Part shown: positions 11,773 through 24,012 of the stretch, in pieces
Layout: each line of letters starts with the position of its first letter
Numbering within the stretch: position 1 is the first letter of the stretch
Assembly: GCA_015660865.1 (NCBI GenBank)
Contig: JACTUA010000001.1
Location: 264,304-328,303, forward strand
DNA: 64,000 bases
Source of the DNA: Methanomicrobiales archaeon
GTDB taxonomy: Archaea; Halobacteriota; Methanomicrobia; Methanomicrobiales; JACTUA01
Reading direction: 5' to 3'
The notes under the pieces: model-generated
What the model was told of the DNA's origin: nothing
The model's input: the letters and a program-made list of their open reading frames with translations, nothing else
Databases searched by the model: none
Program-made: the position numbers and the translations under genes

Positions 11773-12504
11773 ATGCCAGCACCACTCGTGGGCCATAAGT
11801 TCGGCGTTGGCCTCATCCCGCCCCTCGAACACGGGAAGGCGAAGGGCATCAGGGTCCTTGGGATCTCGGGGTCGAGCCGGCAGGTGCCGGGGATCTCCAA
11901 GTCTGAGCGGCTCCTCATCCGCGCCCTTGATCGGTATAAGGGATACGGGTGCGATACCACCTTCCTCCGGCTGAAGGACCTGAAGATCTACGACTGCGAG
12001 GGGAACTACTCCGAGAACCCCTCGTACTGCACCTATCCCTGCCAGTCCTCACTCAAGTATGACGACGACGAGATGCAGAAGGTCTACGACGCGGTGCTCG
12101 CCACCGATATCCTGATCCTCGCGACCCCGATCCGGTGGAACAACCATTCTGCCCTCGTCCAGAAGTTCATCGAGCGGATGAATGCCATCGAGAACCAGGA
12201 CTCCTGGTTCGGGAACCGGCTGATCAGGAACAAGGTGGTCGGCCTCATCATCATCGGGCATGTCGACGGGATCCAGCATGTGGCCGGGAACCTGCTGAAC
12301 TTCTTCGTCTGGTCCGGGTTCCACATCCCTGAAGCAGCCATCGCCTCCTGGGTGGGGGAGAACGACGAGGACACCACCAAGGACTGGGACCAGATCGAAC
12401 GGAACAAGTACACGCAGGAGGATCTCCAGAACATGATCGAAAGCACTCTCAGGCTCTCCTATAACCTCAAGCACGGGATCGGGGAGGCGGAGGAGAAGGG
12501 CTGA
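11773..12504 (+). CDS. NAD(P)H-dependent FMN reductase / flavodoxin-fold protein
   Basis: Flavodoxin-like fold of 243 residues. The FMN phosphate loop is VLGISGSSRQVPGISKSERL (about residues 28-47), and the second flavin-contact stretch is ILATPIRWNNHSALVQKFIE. Methanogens have iron-sulfur flavoproteins of this fold. Here three cysteines (CEGN...CTYPC) sit where ISF proteins have their cluster motif, but the CX2CX2C pattern is absent. It probably reduces quinones or flavins for oxidative stress defence. It ends seven bases before the AT-rich island. Confidence 0.82.
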   Translation: MPAPLVGHKFGVGLIPPLEHGKAKGIRVLGISGSSRQVPGISKSERLLIRALDRYKGYGCDTTFLRLKDLKIYDCEGNYSENPSYCTYPCQSSLKYDDDEMQKVYDAVLATDILILATPIRWNNHSALVQKFIERMNAIENQDSWFGNRLIRNKVVGLIIIGHVDGIQHVAGNLLNFFVWSGFHIPEAAIASWVGENDEDTTKDWDQIERNKYTQEDLQNMIESTLRLSYNLKHGIGEAEEKG

Positions 12505-15420
12505 GGGAAATCAATCATGATTATAGATCACAGAAAGACGCCCAGCCCGCTCTCTGAAATCTATATATTTTCCCGAATAATCTAACATCTCGGCAAGAGT
12601 TTTTTCAAGAATCACGATTGGAACAGTTTCCAGACGATAATACCTTGCAGTGTGGGATAAATAATATATCGCCAGCAGTCTCAAATATCGCTCGCATAAT
12701 TTCTTAAGAGTACTATTTGAGGAAATAAGATCCGCTTTGGATATGAGAAAAGCCATGAATTGATCGCCCGCATCATAAACAAAATATCCAGGAGAACTTA
12801 ATTTAATATTTTTTTTCTCGTCGCCTAATTGTTTATTAAAATAATCAACTAATTCTGGATCTTCAAAAAATAATTCTTTTGCGACTAAATCATGATAATT
12901 ACTCCATTTTATTGAATCAGAAGGGCACATGTTATCAAGAGAAACTGAAAATTCGAATGGTTTAATTTCCACAACAAGACCTTTAAGATCTTGTTGCATA
13001 CGACTGAAATAACTACCTGGAGGAAGCAAAGAATCTAAAGCTGTATGCTCGATTGAATACTCCTGATGTGATAGGAAAGTCGCTAAATGATGATGTTCTA
13101 TGGAATTTATTCCCTTTGACTTTACAGTTTCACAAAAAGAACAAACGAATTTGCGTGGCGTTTTAATGAATTGTAGATGTGGTCCGGGATCAAAAATAAT
13201 TACTTCATCGTTTTTCAATATTGGCCTGAAATTTTTAGTAATTAAATCGATATTCTCATTAAAGTATAATATTGGTAGTATATAATGAAAAACTTTTGAT
13301 GGCTGATTACTAATTGCATCATCTAACGATTTTGTACCTAATCCTTCTTTGGTGAGTACCGGATAGTTACGTTGGGCTATTAGTCTAGGGGGAATTATCG
13401 AACGCATATCCTCGGATTTTACTCCAAATGAATCAAAAAAGAATGGGTTCAAATGAGATGATAATTTGATACTTTTCTGAATTTCTGAGTCACTCGAATA
13501 ATGATCATCAACATACCTGCTGGTTACGTAGTTAAGAGAATCCCCCAAGACACTTAGAAAATTCTTATATTTTTCATTTTGGGTAAAATCTTCACGAGAA
13601 ACGGTCAAATCAACCAGATTAGATTTTAAATTTATTAAGGCAACCCATTTATTGCTATGAGCTGGAAATAGATTAAAATTCCCAATATATATTCCATGAT
13701 TTAGTACAAAGCAATTATTAGATTCAAACCGAACATCATCAAAAAGATAGAATTTGATCTCTAGATCTGGAAGCTCGGCAGAATATTGAATTCTTGGTTT
13801 GCTATGATCGAACCCTGTTTTTATATCTTTGTCGATTATGGCAACAATTTCAGGGGTATCATAGTCCCAATTCTGACGTAATACTTCTGATTCTCCTGTT
13901 TCAATATTTTTAATCGAAATCGGGATTTCAATTTCTTTTGCATAGTGTTTTAATGAATCAATAATATCTAGTTTCTTTCCTTTCTCGTCCAAAATAATAG
14001 TTATTTCAGTACCCGAATTCCGTTTAGCACCTTCCACATAGGTCCAACCTTCCGCAAGGTCCATAATGCAAAATCTACTTGGAGAGCAATTTTCTTTTTT
14101 CGTATTAACTATCAATTTATTCGCAATCATAAAACAGGAAAGAACACCAATTCCGAATTTGCTAATCGGATCAAAATCTCTTCCTCTAAGTACATCCTTA
14201 AAATTTTTTGATGTATAAAAACTACTACCTTTTTTCGAGAAAAAATCAAATGCATCCTCAAAACTCATTCCAATACCATTATCTTTAAAGGTAATGCTCT
14301 CTTTGTTAAATTCAATTTCAATTAACGGTTTATAACTACTTTCAATAACTTTTCTGAACCTACATGTATCTACCGAATTCTGGAGTAATTCGCGAATCAC
14401 GACGTCATCTCTTGAGTAGAGCGAACGCCCTATCAAAAGATTAACAATCATCTTTCGGTCGAGCTCGAAGCCTATCGGTTTATTGATAAAACCACGAGTC
14501 TCAATTTGAGTCTCAATAATGTCCAAAACAACCAAATTAGATGCCAAAATTGTTTTGACAGAATCTAATTGTTTCTGGATCTGTTTTTTGACCCCCTCGA
14601 TTACTTGAACGCCTTTTGGTGAATACGCTACACAATTTAATACGATTTTATACGGATAGTGATCGGGTTGCCCAATCCCTTGAATTAATAGATGTTTTTT
14701 AAAGGCCTCTTCCGATGCACCTTCAGGTCTTAAGTTATAATAAATTATTTCTGGAGTCCTGTTTGCCGTTACGTCACATTCATCTGCTATACGAAGTAAT
14801 GATGCAAGAAATGAAATGCGAATAGAAATGTTACTTCCTAAAAATTGATTTCTATATTCAGGGCCAAGAAGGTCCTCCTCTCGGTGTCCCTTGCATATTC
14901 TCCCTATTATTCTTGCTTCGGATTGGGATAGGTGTAATTTATCATAAAATTTTTCAAAATTTTCTTCTGTTCGGATATGATGTAATTTTCTTACTTCTTC
15001 TTCATTCTCTCTTTCCGAAGCGACCATTCCCCAGTCATGGAACCACGCTGCAATAATAATAAAAAAAAGCTCATATTCGTTCATTTTAGATTTAATATCA
15101 TCTGGAATGAGCCAATTTAAGTTCTCTTCAACATTTTGACTGTGTAAAAAAAAGTGTGGAGTGTAATAGGGGAACTTAGCTGCAGTATAAGGTAAAATAG
15201 CTTTAGCAATTTCCTCGATAGGTTTCAATCTTCCGTATATTGTTTCGTTCTTATCCTTGAGAGTGTTTTGTAATGACTTTGCGTAAGACATATGTTGCCC
15301 AATTTTTATTATGCCAATACGAGGTTTAAAACATTCGGCTGAAATTTAACATAGATTTTCCGAATCCTTTAAAGGGATTGAAAAATTCAAGGCAGTAAAT
15401 TATTTCATTCAGATTATTCA
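12505..15420. other. AT-rich island holding one large gene
   Basis: From just after the flavin-reductase stop to the permease stop the base composition switches sharply from GC-rich to AT-rich, with many runs of A and T and codons such as AAT, ATA and TTA that neighbours avoid. It holds one gene (12511-15291) and about 125 AT-rich bases upstream with a minus-strand TATA-like GTTTTAAA (15332-15325). The boundaries coincide with the stop codons of two convergent host genes. No integrase, transposase, terminal repeat or tRNA is seen. Recent horizontal acquisition is the likely explanation. Confidence 0.8.
12511..15291 (-). CDS. HD-domain + Hsp90-like (GHKL) ATPase fusion, candidate conflict/defence protein
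   Basis: A 926-residue protein. Residues 40-200 form an HD phosphohydrolase-like domain: His50, the HD pair in AAWFHDWGM (85-86), His136 in CKGHREED and acidic LRIADECD (168-173). Residues 270-620 are an Hsp90-like GHKL ATPase: VIRELLQNSVDTC (N box, Asn305), FKDNGIGMSFED (G1), FGIGVLSCFM (G2) and SGTEITIIL (last box), all intact, followed by a middle domain with VDLTVSREDF. The C-terminal third includes VCSFC and EHHHLATFLSH, a possible zinc site, and is not recognised. The Hsp90-type residues suggest ATP-gated conformational change; the HD part may cleave a nucleotide or nucleic acid. Similar HD-HATPase fusions are known from predicted prokaryotic conflict systems. Composition indicates transfer. 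Confidence 0.8.
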   Translation of the reverse strand: MSYAKSLQNTLKDKNETIYGRLKPIEEIAKAILPYTAAKFPYYTPHFFLHSQNVEENLNWLIPDDIKSKMNEYELFFIIIAAWFHDWGMVASERENEEEVRKLHHIRTEENFEKFYDKLHLSQSEARIIGRICKGHREEDLLGPEYRNQFLGSNISIRISFLASLLRIADECDVTANRTPEIIYYNLRPEGASEEAFKKHLLIQGIGQPDHYPYKIVLNCVAYSPKGVQVIEGVKKQIQKQLDSVKTILASNLVVLDIIETQIETRGFINKPIGFELDRKMIVNLLIGRSLYSRDDVVIRELLQNSVDTCRFRKVIESSYKPLIEIEFNKESITFKDNGIGMSFEDAFDFFSKKGSSFYTSKNFKDVLRGRDFDPISKFGIGVLSCFMIANKLIVNTKKENCSPSRFCIMDLAEGWTYVEGAKRNSGTEITIILDEKGKKLDIIDSLKHYAKEIEIPISIKNIETGESEVLRQNWDYDTPEIVAIIDKDIKTGFDHSKPRIQYSAELPDLEIKFYLFDDVRFESNNCFVLNHGIYIGNFNLFPAHSNKWVALINLKSNLVDLTVSREDFTQNEKYKNFLSVLGDSLNYVTSRYVDDHYSSDSEIQKSIKLSSHLNPFFFDSFGVKSEDMRSIIPPRLIAQRNYPVLTKEGLGTKSLDDAISNQPSKVFHYILPILYFNENIDLITKNFRPILKNDEVIIFDPGPHLQFIKTPRKFVCSFCETVKSKGINSIEHHHLATFLSHQEYSIEHTALDSLLPPGSYFSRMQQDLKGLVVEIKPFEFSVSLDNMCPSDSIKWSNYHDLVAKELFFEDPELVDYFNKQLGDEKKNIKLSSPGYFVYDAGDQFMAFLISKADLISSNSTLKKLCERYLRLLAIYYLSHTARYYRLETVPIVILEKTLAEMLDYSGKYIDFRERAGRLSVIYNHD

Positions 15421-16803
15421 AAAGCTCGGCTGCTCCCATGCCGTCCACCTGAACAACGCCTTCCTGAGGATGTACCACCCGGGCGGGATCAGGCACAGGC
15501 TCGAGAGGGCGAACCATGGGTTCGGGATGGAGACGAAGAGGAGAACGAGGAGAACCGGTATGATGAGCCCGAGGTAGGGGAGATAGACCTTTGCGTTGTA
15601 GAGCATGATGGACGGCGAGAGGCCGCCCACGTAGACGGTGACCGCGACCGCGTAGAAGGAGATCGAGGCAAAGGTGAGGAGGGCAGGGAGGAGGAGGGTG
15701 ACCTGGCCAGTTCCCAAACCGGCGGCGACGAGGATGGCGACCGAGACCAGGTTGAGGAGCCCGTAACTCTGGAGCTTCCCCCGGATGACGGTCCCGACCT
15801 CGACGGGCAGGAAGGCGTAGGAGGTGAAGAGATCGAACTCGGTGACCCAGTTGTAGATGGTGGAGGAGATCACCCCAAGGAGGATGGCGAAGACCATGAG
15901 CTGCGAGAGCATCGGGATAAAACGCAGGAGGATGAAGAGCGCGATCCAGATGAACATGACGGGGAAGAGGAAGGAGAAGACGACCTTCCCTGCCCCGCCC
16001 TCGCTCCGGTTCAGGTCGAGGGCATCCTTCGCGATGAGGTGGGAATCGGGCGACCAGGCGAGTATCCCCACCAGCCGGTCCAGGGTCTCGGGAAAGCGCC
16101 TCGTCTCTTCCCTGTACTCGACCTTCAGGAATCGCACCGAGATAGCGCTGGGCACGATGATGAGGACCAGGGTGGTGAGGAGAAGGAGGGGGGATGGCCT
16201 GTAGTAAAGGGCAAGGGGGGGAAGGAGGCTGATCACACCCGCGTTCACCGAATGGGCATAGAAAGCCGCACCAGCCGCCGCGGCGACGAGGATCCCGAGG
16301 AGGGTGCGGGGAGAATGCACATAGATGGTCGAGAGGAGGAAGACGAAGGAGAGGCCGAGGAGGAACGAGAGGGAGAGGGTCGCGAGCATGCGTATGACCG
16401 ACAGGATGGGGAGACCGATAAAGGGCGCGGCGAAGGCGAGGCCAGCGACGAAGGGGAAGACCCAGAAGAAGAGGTAGTAGACCGTGTCCTTGAGGAAGAA
16501 GTTGAGGAGGATGGCCTGCTCGGAGACCGGGAGGCTCCGTGACGAGTACGCGATCATGGACGCCTGCCCGAACCTGCGGTTCATCACCTCGCGGCCGAAG
16601 AGCCCGAACCCCCCGACGCTCGCCCCGGCAAGGAGGTAGCAGGAGTGGATGAGGATGACCGCGGTCTGCGCCGGGAGGACATCGGAGAAGAACGGCCAGA
16701 AGAGGGCCCCTGCGGTGGCGAAGAAGACGAGGAGCAGGGGGAAGAGGGCGAACCCGGCGGACCCGAAGAGCGTCGAGTGGACCCGCCACTCCTCCTTGAG
16801 CAT
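15418..16803 (-). CDS. ABC transporter permease, multi-pass
   Basis: Integral membrane protein of about 461 residues with roughly 12 hydrophobic segments, including GFALFPLLLVFFATAGALF near the N-terminus and LIIPVLLVLLFVSIP near the end. It is the partner of the ATPase immediately upstream on the same strand, forming an ABC-2 type exporter of unknown substrate. I start it at ATG 16803 (MLKEEWRVHS), because the longer frame upstream translates a 54-base tandem repeat into an 18-residue repeat that is unlikely to be part of the protein. The gene ends exactly where the AT-rich island begins. An overlapping ORF in another frame reaching 15326 is a shadow. Confidence 0.82.
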   Translation of the reverse strand: MLKEEWRVHSTLFGSAGFALFPLLLVFFATAGALFWPFFSDVLPAQTAVILIHSCYLLAGASVGGFGLFGREVMNRRFGQASMIAYSSRSLPVSEQAILLNFFLKDTVYYLFFWVFPFVAGLAFAAPFIGLPILSVIRMLATLSLSFLLGLSFVFLLSTIYVHSPRTLLGILVAAAAGAAFYAHSVNAGVISLLPPLALYYRPSPLLLLTTLVLIIVPSAISVRFLKVEYREETRRFPETLDRLVGILAWSPDSHLIAKDALDLNRSEGGAGKVVFSFLFPVMFIWIALFILLRFIPMLSQLMVFAILLGVISSTIYNWVTEFDLFTSYAFLPVEVGTVIRGKLQSYGLLNLVSVAILVAAGLGTGQVTLLLPALLTFASISFYAVAVTVYVGGLSPSIMLYNAKVYLPYLGLIIPVLLVLLFVSIPNPWFALSSLCLIPPGWYILRKALFRWTAWEQPSF

Positions 16804-16812
16804 CGCGGTGAA

Positions 16813-16920
16813 GATCGTGTTCGTGGGAACACGATTCGAGAGGATCCCTGAAAGTGATCTTCGAGGGATCGTGTTTATGGGAACACGATTCGAGAAGATC
16901 CCCGATGGGGATCTTCGAGG
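16813..16920. repeat. 54-bp tandem repeat (two units) with hairpins
   Basis: Two units, 16813-16866 and 16867-16920, with a few differences, between the ABC ATPase and permease genes. Each unit holds a perfect 8-bp stem ATCGTGTT/AACACGAT with a 6-base loop (CGTGGG in unit 1, TATGGG in unit 2) and a second stem ending in GATCTT. In unit 2 this is a perfect 9-bp AAGATCCCC/GGGGATCTT with loop GAT. Stems are kept while loops vary, as expected for selected RNA or DNA structure. Confidence 0.85.
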
Positions 16921-16924
16921 GATC

Positions 16925-17650
16925 TCAAGCATGGGGATCCCCGCGGACTGCGTCGAGGAAGAACTCCTCCAGGTGCTTCGACGAGGATCTTATCTCCGCA
17001 ACCGGCCCCTCGCGGATGAGGTTCCCCTGATGGATGATCCCAATCCTCGTGCAGATCTCCTCGGCGATCTCGAGAATGTGGGTGGAGAGGAAGACCGTCC
17101 CCCCGCCCTTCACATATTCGGTGAGGTAGTTCTTGATCTTGCGCTGCATGATGGGGTCGAGGTTGATCAAAGGCTCGTCGATGAGCACGAGCCCTGGCTT
17201 GTGGAGGAAGGCCTGGGCGACCATGAGCTTCTGCCGGGTGCCCCTCGAGAGGTCCTTGCAGAGCACGTCCCTCTTGTCGCCGAACTCCAGGAAGTCGAAC
17301 CAGAAGCCGCACTGGCTCTCGATGTCCGCTATCCGGCGGATATGCCCCACGAAATGGAGGTACTCCTCGGCCGTGAGGAACGAGGGCGGGGTCTCCTGCT
17401 CAGGTGTGATCCCCACAAGCTCGCGAACCCTGACGGGTTGTGCAACTGCATCCAGCCCCATGACCCGGACCTCGCCGGACGTAGGCTTCAGCTGGCCGGT
17501 GAGGCACTTGATCATGGTCGTCTTCCCCGACCCGTTTGGGCCGAGAAGGCCGAAGAGCTCCCCCTTCTGAACCGAGAGCGAGATGTTGTTCACGGCGGTT
17601 ACATCGCCGAATGTCCTGGTGAGCCCCTTCACATCGATGATGATCTCCAT
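16925..17650 (-). CDS. ABC transporter ATP-binding protein
   Basis: Cytoplasmic ATPase of 241 residues that drives the adjacent permease. Walker A is GPNGSGKTTMI (about 38-48), the Q-loop region is ITPEQE, the signature is the variant DLSRGTRQKLM, and Walker B is GLVLIDEPLINLD followed by the switch STHILE. I chose ATG 17650 (MEIIIDVKGL), preceded by GAGGGGGT; a longer frame to 17740 translates GC-rich hairpin DNA. Two hairpins in the leader (17662-17707) and the tandem repeat after the gene make this operon unusually structured. Confidence 0.9.
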   Translation of the reverse strand: MEIIIDVKGLTRTFGDVTAVNNISLSVQKGELFGLLGPNGSGKTTMIKCLTGQLKPTSGEVRVMGLDAVAQPVRVRELVGITPEQETPPSFLTAEEYLHFVGHIRRIADIESQCGFWFDFLEFGDKRDVLCKDLSRGTRQKLMVAQAFLHKPGLVLIDEPLINLDPIMQRKIKNYLTEYVKGGGTVFLSTHILEIAEEICTRIGIIHQGNLIREGPVAEIRSSSKHLEEFFLDAVRGDPHA

Positions 17651-17661
17651 ATTACCCCCTC

Positions 17662-17707
17662 GGGCAGGCCTTGCCGGCCCGCCCTCTTGGGCCAGCCCTG
17701 ATGGCCC
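17662..17707 (-). repeat. Two GC-rich hairpins in the ABC operon leader
   Basis: On the minus strand, transcribed towards the ATPase, GGGCCA-N7-TGGCCC (17707-17689) is followed by a 9-bp stem GGGCGGGCC/GGCCTGCCC with loop GGCAA (17684-17662), with a single G-U pair. The second stem ends 11 bases before the start codon at 17650, so it could affect ribosome access. Confidence 0.55.
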
Positions 17708-17828
17708 GGCCCACATTCTCCGGTAGCCCCTCCCCCGCAATAAGGGTATATGCGGAGAATGAGGGAAATTGCGGTCCCCCGAGCCTGAAAAATGGCTTTA
17801 ATACCTCGCCCTCCCATCCCTCTAGTGG

Positions 17829-23145: not shown

Positions 23146-23799
23146 TCACAAAATGAGTGGATTGAAACGGCTATATATCACATATACCACGAAAAAATTC
23201 AATACCCATGCGAGCATTGCCAGAAGCGGACTGAAGATCGCGATAAAAATAGATAATGCAAAAACAGCAACCGGGATCAGACTCCTGATCGAGAGATATC
23301 GAATAAAATCATCATCGAGATCCGGGTCGATGAGATGATGGCCCTTCGATGCATGAATCCACATCCGGGACAGGATAGCGCTGCTCACCGCGATGTTTGC
23401 GGCATAGAAGATAACAATGGTATAATGGTCGCCGTACAGGCCGAGCAGATAGGTGGGGAAGGGCATGAAGACAATACAAAAGAGGAACAGGGTGTTCCAT
23501 TGCACCAGAATTCTGTCGATTTCACGGATGAAATGAAAGATACGGTGATAGGACAGCCAGTACATCGCAATGATAAAAAAGCTCAGGATTAAACCCAAAA
23601 TTTTCGGGGATATAGCAACCATGCTCTCCAGGAAACGGGCATCGATCTCAGCAGACGGGATCTCGGGAAGCCGTATCTCGAGGATGAGAAGGGTGATGGC
23701 AATGGTAAATATCCCGTCGCTGAAACTCATCAATCTCTCTTTATCCAGGCCTAAAGGTTCAAGAAAAGATCTCCTGGCATTCTTCAGATCGGCTCCCAT
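23146..23799 (-). CDS. TMEM175/DUF1211-family potassium channel-like protein
   Basis: A six-segment membrane protein of 217 residues. The first segment holds RLMSFSDGIFTIAITLLILE, the FSDG pore-helix signature of the TMEM175 (DUF1211) family, which form K+-selective channels without the usual selectivity filter. Bacterial and archaeal members have one such unit per chain and assemble as tetramers. AT content is higher than in the surroundings, though less so than in the HD/Hsp90 island. It lies next to tRNA-Thr. Confidence 0.88.
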   Translation of the reverse strand: MGADLKNARRSFLEPLGLDKERLMSFSDGIFTIAITLLILEIRLPEIPSAEIDARFLESMVAISPKILGLILSFFIIAMYWLSYHRIFHFIREIDRILVQWNTLFLFCIVFMPFPTYLLGLYGDHYTIVIFYAANIAVSSAILSRMWIHASKGHHLIDPDLDDDFIRYLSIRSLIPVAVFALSIFIAIFSPLLAMLAWVLNFFVVYVIYSRFNPLIL

Positions 23800-23940
23800 T
23801 TCGATCCCTTGAAGATACGTCAGAGATTCCGGACATTTAACATTATCGACGGTTCACTTTATGAGATCGCCCTATTCGCGCCAGGATCAGAAAAACCCTG
23901 GAGGAAATAGGGACCAAAGGGAGTTGAACGAAATGAAAAG

Positions 23941-24012
23941 AGCCGCTGGAGGGATTCGAACCCTCGACCTGCGGTTTACGAAACCGCCGCTATGCCTCTA
24001 AGCCACAGCGGC
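23941..24012 (-). tRNA. tRNA-Thr (CGU)
   Basis: 72 bases. Acceptor stem GCCGCTG/CAGCGGC pairs fully. The anticodon stem GCGGT/ACCGC encloses loop TTCGTAA with anticodon CGU. The T arm carries GAGGG-TTCGAAT-CCCTC. The discriminator base is U, as in archaeal tRNA-Thr. CCA is not encoded. Confidence 0.95.

Follow-up and report, generated by a model that had tools for sequence, protein, structure and literature searches.

An AT-rich single-gene island in a Methanomicrobiales genome encodes an HD-CE/Hsp90-like fusion protein and is a candidate for a mobile defence gene

The DNA analysed here (the window, 64 kb in length) belongs to the 1.94-Mb genome of a methanogen in which mcrA is present. It contains an AT-rich island that consists of a single gene, an uninterrupted open reading frame that starts with ATG and encodes 926 amino acids, and of a 126-bp upstream spacer, which is presumably its promoter (Table 1). 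The GC content is 0.340 in the gene, 0.29 in the spacer and 0.62 in the remaining window, while across 222 equally long windows from other parts of the 64 kb the mean is 0.621 (s.d. 0.026) and the minimum 0.529. The difference is larger at third codon positions, where the island gene has a GC3 of 0.275 compared with 0.84-0.87 in the flanking genes, whose overall GC content is 60-62%. These flanking genes encode an FMN reductase and an ABC-transporter permease, the latter followed by an ABC ATPase gene (16925-17740). They are convergent, and both are complete because orthologues of the permease align up to its last residue. The initial annotation had described an island lying exactly between two convergent gene ends, seven bases after the first; the arrangement is as described, except that the gap between the reductase gene and the stop of the island gene is 6 bp. 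At the other edge, the GC step is located exactly at the permease stop codon (15418-15420). The island gene is foreign DNA, inserted precisely between two host stops.

Mobility genes are absent from the site, as had been noted at the outset, and no tRNA or Rfam match was found within the island. The joins of the island show one 9-base inverted match only when searched for direct and inverted repeats, and no credible target-site duplication. Among 41 genomes searched for orthologues of the FMN reductase and the permease, the two genes are never adjacent in the eight genomes that contain both, and neither an empty site nor alternative cargo was found, so that the initial proposal of a hotspot at the window site is unsupported; the sole genome of the same genus (71% complete) lacks both orthologues. 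A second, milder low-GC patch (46%) occurs in the window at 23146-23799 (- strand), where it encodes a predicted membrane protein of 217 amino acids close to a tRNA-Thr gene (23940-24012).

Table 1. Features of the island and its flanks, in window coordinates
Feature	Position	Strand	Basis
Left flank, host NADPH-dependent FMN reductase	11773..12504	+	PF03358 5.6e-17; orthologues in relatives 69-82% identical
Single island gene, 926-aa HD-CE/Hsp90-like fusion	12511..15291	-	ORF, profile matches, GC
C-terminal region (residues 620-926), no known domain	12514..13434	-	No Pfam hit; pLDDT <50
CxxC (717-720) and HHH (733-735), private to the island protein	13087..13143	-	Sequence; absent from relatives
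SREDFTQ, Hsp90 middle-domain catalytic Arg loop (R566)	13579..13599	-	Aligned with TRAP1 'LSRE' in profile search
Hsp90/GHKL N-terminal ATPase domain (residues 275-476)	13864..14469	-	Profile matches, TRAP1 alignment
DNGIGM motif (D337-M342)	14266..14283	-	Sequence; family alignments
RELLQN motif, catalytic Glu301 and ATP-binding Asn305	14377..14394	-	Invariant in two family alignments
HD-CE domain (residues 40-227), predicted metal-dependent phosphohydrolase	14611..15174	-	Pfam PF24391 1.2e-32; AF2
H85-D86 signature of the HD site	15034..15039	-	Sequence; invariant across 12 fusions
Upstream spacer of the island, AT-rich (29% GC), presumed promoter	15292..15417	-	Sequence and GC
Right flank, host ABC-transporter permease	15418..16932	-	Orthologues of relatives aligned to last residue

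The N-terminal part of the protein matches the Pfam family HD-CE (PF24391) with 114.1 bits against a gathering cut-off of 27 bits. We take CE to denote conflict effector, that is, an effector of biological conflict systems. The HD metal-site residues H46, H50, H85, D86, H104, H136 and D170 are invariant in 12 aligned fusion proteins; this set retains H50, H85-D86, H136 and D170 from the residues listed initially and adds H46 and H104, while D173, which had also been listed, is not invariant. The island protein is a member of HD-CE with an intact metal site. AlphaFold2 applied to residues 1-272 alone returned a confident HD-CE domain (pLDDT 83.7, pTM 0.85). A fold search of the PDB with this model found Ppx/GppA as the nearest match, followed by HD-GYP and PDE4 domains, at values (E 4e-4, TM 0.42-0.55) that are too weak to name a substrate.

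The second module belongs to the Hsp90 type, in agreement with the initial annotation, which had listed N305, DNGIGM and the other ATPase motifs. The GHKL N-domain motifs (catalytic Glu, Asn, DxGxG, GxGxxS and GT) are all present, and R300, E301, Q304, N305, D337, G339, G341, G380, G382 and T428 are invariant or nearly so when plasmid, phage and archaeal relatives are aligned. HATPase_c_3 matches residues 296-403 (2.1e-8), and an HtpG-type N domain matches residues 275-476 (4.4e-26). The homology extends beyond the ATPase domain: the family profile at 334-722 aligns to TRAP1 26-412 through the middle domain (E 3e-28), with the SRE loop aligned and R566 nearly invariant in the family. In Hsp90, the arginine of this middle-domain loop is catalytic. 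Residues 275-620 constitute a genuine Hsp90 module of N and middle domains, in which the catalytic Glu and Asn and the Arg of the middle domain are all retained. HtpG family models give 91.5 and 74.4 bits, below their curated cut-off of 371-455 bits; the region is therefore an Hsp90-like module and not an HtpG orthologue. The protein resembles HtpG, TRAP1 and Hsp90 in its N ATPase and middle domains, catalytic Glu and Asn, DxGxGM motif and middle-domain Arg. It differs from them in having an additional N-terminal HD hydrolase and in not being a core chaperone of the lineage.

The C-terminal third has no Pfam hit and no confident HSP90 family match. The CxxC and HHH motifs that had been proposed to mark a metal-binding part are present, but they are absent from all aligned relatives, and the proposed metal site is unsupported. 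Structure prediction, one of the checks proposed at the outset, gave good HD-CE and ATPase domains in the full-length AlphaFold2 model but a poor model beyond residue 472 (pLDDT <50).

The family to which the protein belongs is neither universal among relatives nor part of a recognised housekeeping family, the two outcomes that had been named as evidence against a defence role. The full fusion is encoded by 2 of the 232 genomes of the order, a third genome having a partial match only, and by 18 of the 393 genomes in a sample of the phylum, and no housekeeping family was matched. A maximum-likelihood tree places the window protein next to a sister from another family (100/98), and its nearest homologue is archaeal. 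The remaining full copy of the order has a bacterial (pro)viral protein as its sister (100/100), and viral sequences are likewise the partners of two more archaeal ones (99/98 and 99/99). The order's two copies are not sisters, and archaeal copies are intermingled in the tree with bacterial (pro)viral ones. This pattern shows horizontal movement across domains. The distribution is thus patchy and non-vertical, as is expected of an anti-phage defence system. A scan of genome contigs with a single protein as query yielded one weak match.

Most archaeal copies stand alone between housekeeping genes with no element genes around, and their GC content is 31-36% (31% in the other full copy of the order), compared with 40-60% in the hosts. 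Two copies have more suggestive neighbours. In the first (L160:1-6490), overlapping genes encode HsdM, a small RecG-C-type ATPase-wHTH protein, the fusion and a SIR2 protein that matches PADLOC PDC-S65 (1.8e-202); this operon is possibly a multi-layer variant of a type I restriction-modification (R-M) system. In the second (L172), a C5 methylase gene lies 72 bp upstream of the fusion gene. However, a PADLOC scan of 103 neighbours of archaeal copies showed no excess of known defence genes over 123 neighbours in regions drawn at random from several of the same genomes, a set in which DISARM and type I R-M genes even occurred. One genus has the fusion near gyrB-gyrA, beside gyrA, in several species (L162, L163, L165 and L166). 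These copies have a GC content of 33-34%, even where gyrB has 53%, and they look more like residents than visitors.

Relatives of the island gene are carried by phages and plasmids. In IMG/VR, 35 contigs encode such relatives, and HD-CE together with a GHKL ATPase was found in all ten that were scanned; a second viral scan for closer homologues returned only the same loci. The phage genes are lone, in most cases with a GC content below that of the surrounding phage, and adjoin repressor, antirepressor or baseplate genes. In one P2-like phage (L122), the HD-CE/Hsp90 gene lies directly between gpA (phrog_91, 5e-261) and the portal gene Q (phrog_68, 3e-168) as single-gene cargo, with 36% GC compared with 57% in its surroundings. 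The same interval contains just a 240-bp ORF in Erwinia phage ENT90, which is 87% identical to this phage over portal and terminase, and other genes in phage Fels-2. According to Rousset et al. (PMC9122126) and Vassallo et al. (PMC9519451), the P2 gpA-Q interval (old/tin) is a defence hotspot, the tested cargo of which is largely anti-phage. The fusion in the P2-like phage resembles this cargo in position and in its single-gene form, and it does not appear among the systems found by text searches of the two papers. This occupation of the P2 hotspot is the one case found, and the protein concerned is ~19% identical to the window protein. Searches of E. coli genomes for two phage-borne homologues gave no near match, and known phage genomes gave Hsp90-domain matches only, without the fusion.

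On plasmids, Shedu, type I R-M, Abi and AbiEii genes lie no more than several kb from the fusion gene. Together with prophages, the P2 hotspot and the HsdM-SIR2 operon, these contexts bear out, for relatives of the gene, the conflict-type setting that had been named initially for such fusions; carriage on mobile elements or in defence slots is a property of the relatives and not of the window copy. The plasmid- and phage-borne HD-CE + HATPase fusions (PF24391), annotated only as 'ATP-binding protein', share both modules, their order and the invariant residues with the window protein, whereas identity reaches at most ~35% and the C-terminal third differs. Literature searches found nothing relevant on HD-CE, no paper describing an HD-CE/Hsp90 fusion and no characterised function for the HD-CE + HATPase proteins. 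In a plasmid of Aliarcobacter butzleri, the copy (L081:7890-10711) is split within the ATPase into two ORFs, which are annotated as two hypothetical proteins.

The gene is foreign and AT-rich, and its relatives occur singly on phages, on plasmids and in the chromosomes of archaea and, once, in an anti-phage slot; it therefore probably encodes a one-gene immune system. We consider it moderately probable that the island gene moves horizontally and is a candidate for one-gene defence, with an Hsp90 clamp that would gate an HD hydrolase. The evidence counted in favour is the foreign GC content, the patchy distribution, the tree, the phage cargo and its P2 slot, the contexts of the L160, L172 and plasmid copies, the invariant active sites, the profile match to TRAP1 and the precedent of VcSduA. 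Against it count the lack of a defence-gene excess near archaeal copies, the lone housekeeping settings, the gyrA-adjacent position, the single case in the P2 hotspot, the missing PADLOC model, the missing literature on the fusion and the poor full-length model beyond residue 472. Foreign origin, domain architecture and patchiness thus agree with the original interpretation, but the unenriched archaeal neighbourhoods and the stable copies beside gyrA do not. The defence reading is plausible and is strengthened by the phage-cargo evidence, short of being established, and an antiviral role of the island protein is an inference.

The presence of two complete active sites, one of them in a putative ATP-driven clamp, fits a sensor-switch-effector design. 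In the mechanism proposed here, a homodimeric Hsp90-type clamp, formed by the N and middle domains and closing on ATP, would act as sensor and switch, and the variable C-terminal third (620-926) would supply dimerisation or target recognition. Closing or opening of the clamp on a protein or complex made by an invader would release the N-terminal HD-CE domain, which may then hydrolyse a phosphoester in a nucleotide, a signalling nucleotide or a nucleic acid, and this hydrolysis would stop the replication of the invader or of the infected cell. That the clamp detects a product of the invader and thereby permits the hydrolase to act is suggested by analogy with VcSduA (Shedu type I-D), the nearest tested precedent, a single protein with a GHKL ATPase and a nuclease in which mutating either abolishes phage defence (PMC12137116). 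In both proteins, a hydrolytic effector would be joined to a GHKL ATPase whose middle domain is clamp-like. They differ in that VcSduA has a MORC-like ATPase and a C-terminal PD-(D/E)xK (DUF4263) nuclease, for which the island protein gave no Pfam hit, while the island protein has an N-terminal HD domain and an Hsp90-like ATPase. A more specific version, in which a stand-alone immune protein uses its Hsp90 clamp to bind viral proteins as clients and an ATP-driven cycle switches on the HD phosphohydrolase, is put forward tentatively, as possible and somewhat doubtful.

If this version is true, prokaryotes would have an equivalent of Hsp90-dependent immune receptors in a single protein, common to archaea, phages and plasmids. 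GHKL ATPases coupled to effectors, as in VcSduA, are a recently recognised single-gene layout of phage defence, and prokaryotic immunity would gain a chaperone-like sensor if a clamp of the Hsp90 type, rather than of the MORC or MutL type, were combined with an HD hydrolase. The HD-CE/Hsp90 family is widespread yet unnamed in defence databases, and the copy in the P2 gpA-Q slot provides a directly testable laboratory handle.

Many phages and plasmids carry the family, which would also be expected if the gene were a non-defensive passenger of mobile elements, a moron that benefits its element by altering host stress physiology or folding or by countering host immunity. Homology to Hsp90 through the middle domain makes chaperone-like handling of clients possible. 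However, the window copy and most archaeal copies are chromosomal and have no element genes around them, the slot occupied in the P2-like phage has yielded largely anti-phage cargo, and an intact HD hydrolase suits an effector better than a helper. A passenger role is thus considered unlikely.

It is slightly less likely that the protein is a host stress or signalling enzyme whose HD phosphohydrolase, under Hsp90 regulation, has an alarmone or cyclic nucleotide as its substrate and which spread by ordinary horizontal transfer. Against it speak the very patchy distribution in the order and the phylum and the carriage by phages and plasmids. The Ppx/GppA, HD-GYP and PDE4 folds nearest to the HD-CE model do speak for it, although these matches are weak, as do the stable gyrA-adjacent place in several species of one genus and the absence of defence-gene enrichment in archaea.

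A restriction-type enzyme, with an HD nuclease and an Hsp90/GHKL clamp that engages DNA, akin to BbrUII/HgiDII and sometimes accompanied by a cognate methylase, is improbable. The GHKL module does match restrict_BbrUII (3.3e-7) and the REase_II models of PADLOC (3.3e-5), and a C5 methylase gene adjoins one archaeal copy (L172), while HsdM is encoded in the operon of another (L160). However, Hsp90 is a far better match than the restriction GHKL domain (4e-26 versus 3e-7), and the window gene and most other copies have no adjoining methylase. The similarity to BbrUII/HgiDII-type enzymes, which share the GHKL core and have no equivalent of the HD domain, ends at the ATPase; likewise, PADLOC-DB 2.0.0 contained no full-length system match, REase_II covering the ATPase only. 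The abrupt change in composition at both edges could also result from an assembly or binning artefact that fused a foreign contig into the genome, but this is very improbable given that both flanking genes are complete with joins at their stop codons, that the nearest homologue is archaeal and that the pattern of a low-GC lone gene recurs in independent genomes.

Taken by themselves, HD-CE domains are frequent in the order: 85 of 232 genomes encode them, mostly as short free-standing proteins. The genome that contains the window encodes a second, free-standing HD-CE protein of 240 amino acids (L087:8012-8734, - strand, 34% GC) at a contig end; the coordinates tied to the second HD-CE observation in this genome (G000) are contig C3 53107-53625. 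The adjoining gene (L087:6956-7858, 37% GC) encodes a 300-aa protein without a Pfam hit, the start of which resembles a proteasome-like Ntn hydrolase (DGVILATDSASSL), and the pair is possibly a two-gene cassette. Genome G092, the second of the order to encode the fusion, also has a free-standing HD-CE gene (L088:7189-7971, + strand); this gene occupies an AT-rich patch, and a few kb away are genes that, judged by eye, resemble type I restriction-modification genes. Larger HD-CE-type proteins of ~1,210 amino acids are encoded at L170:8951-12577 and L171:9354-12992 and match the window protein over its HD part only.
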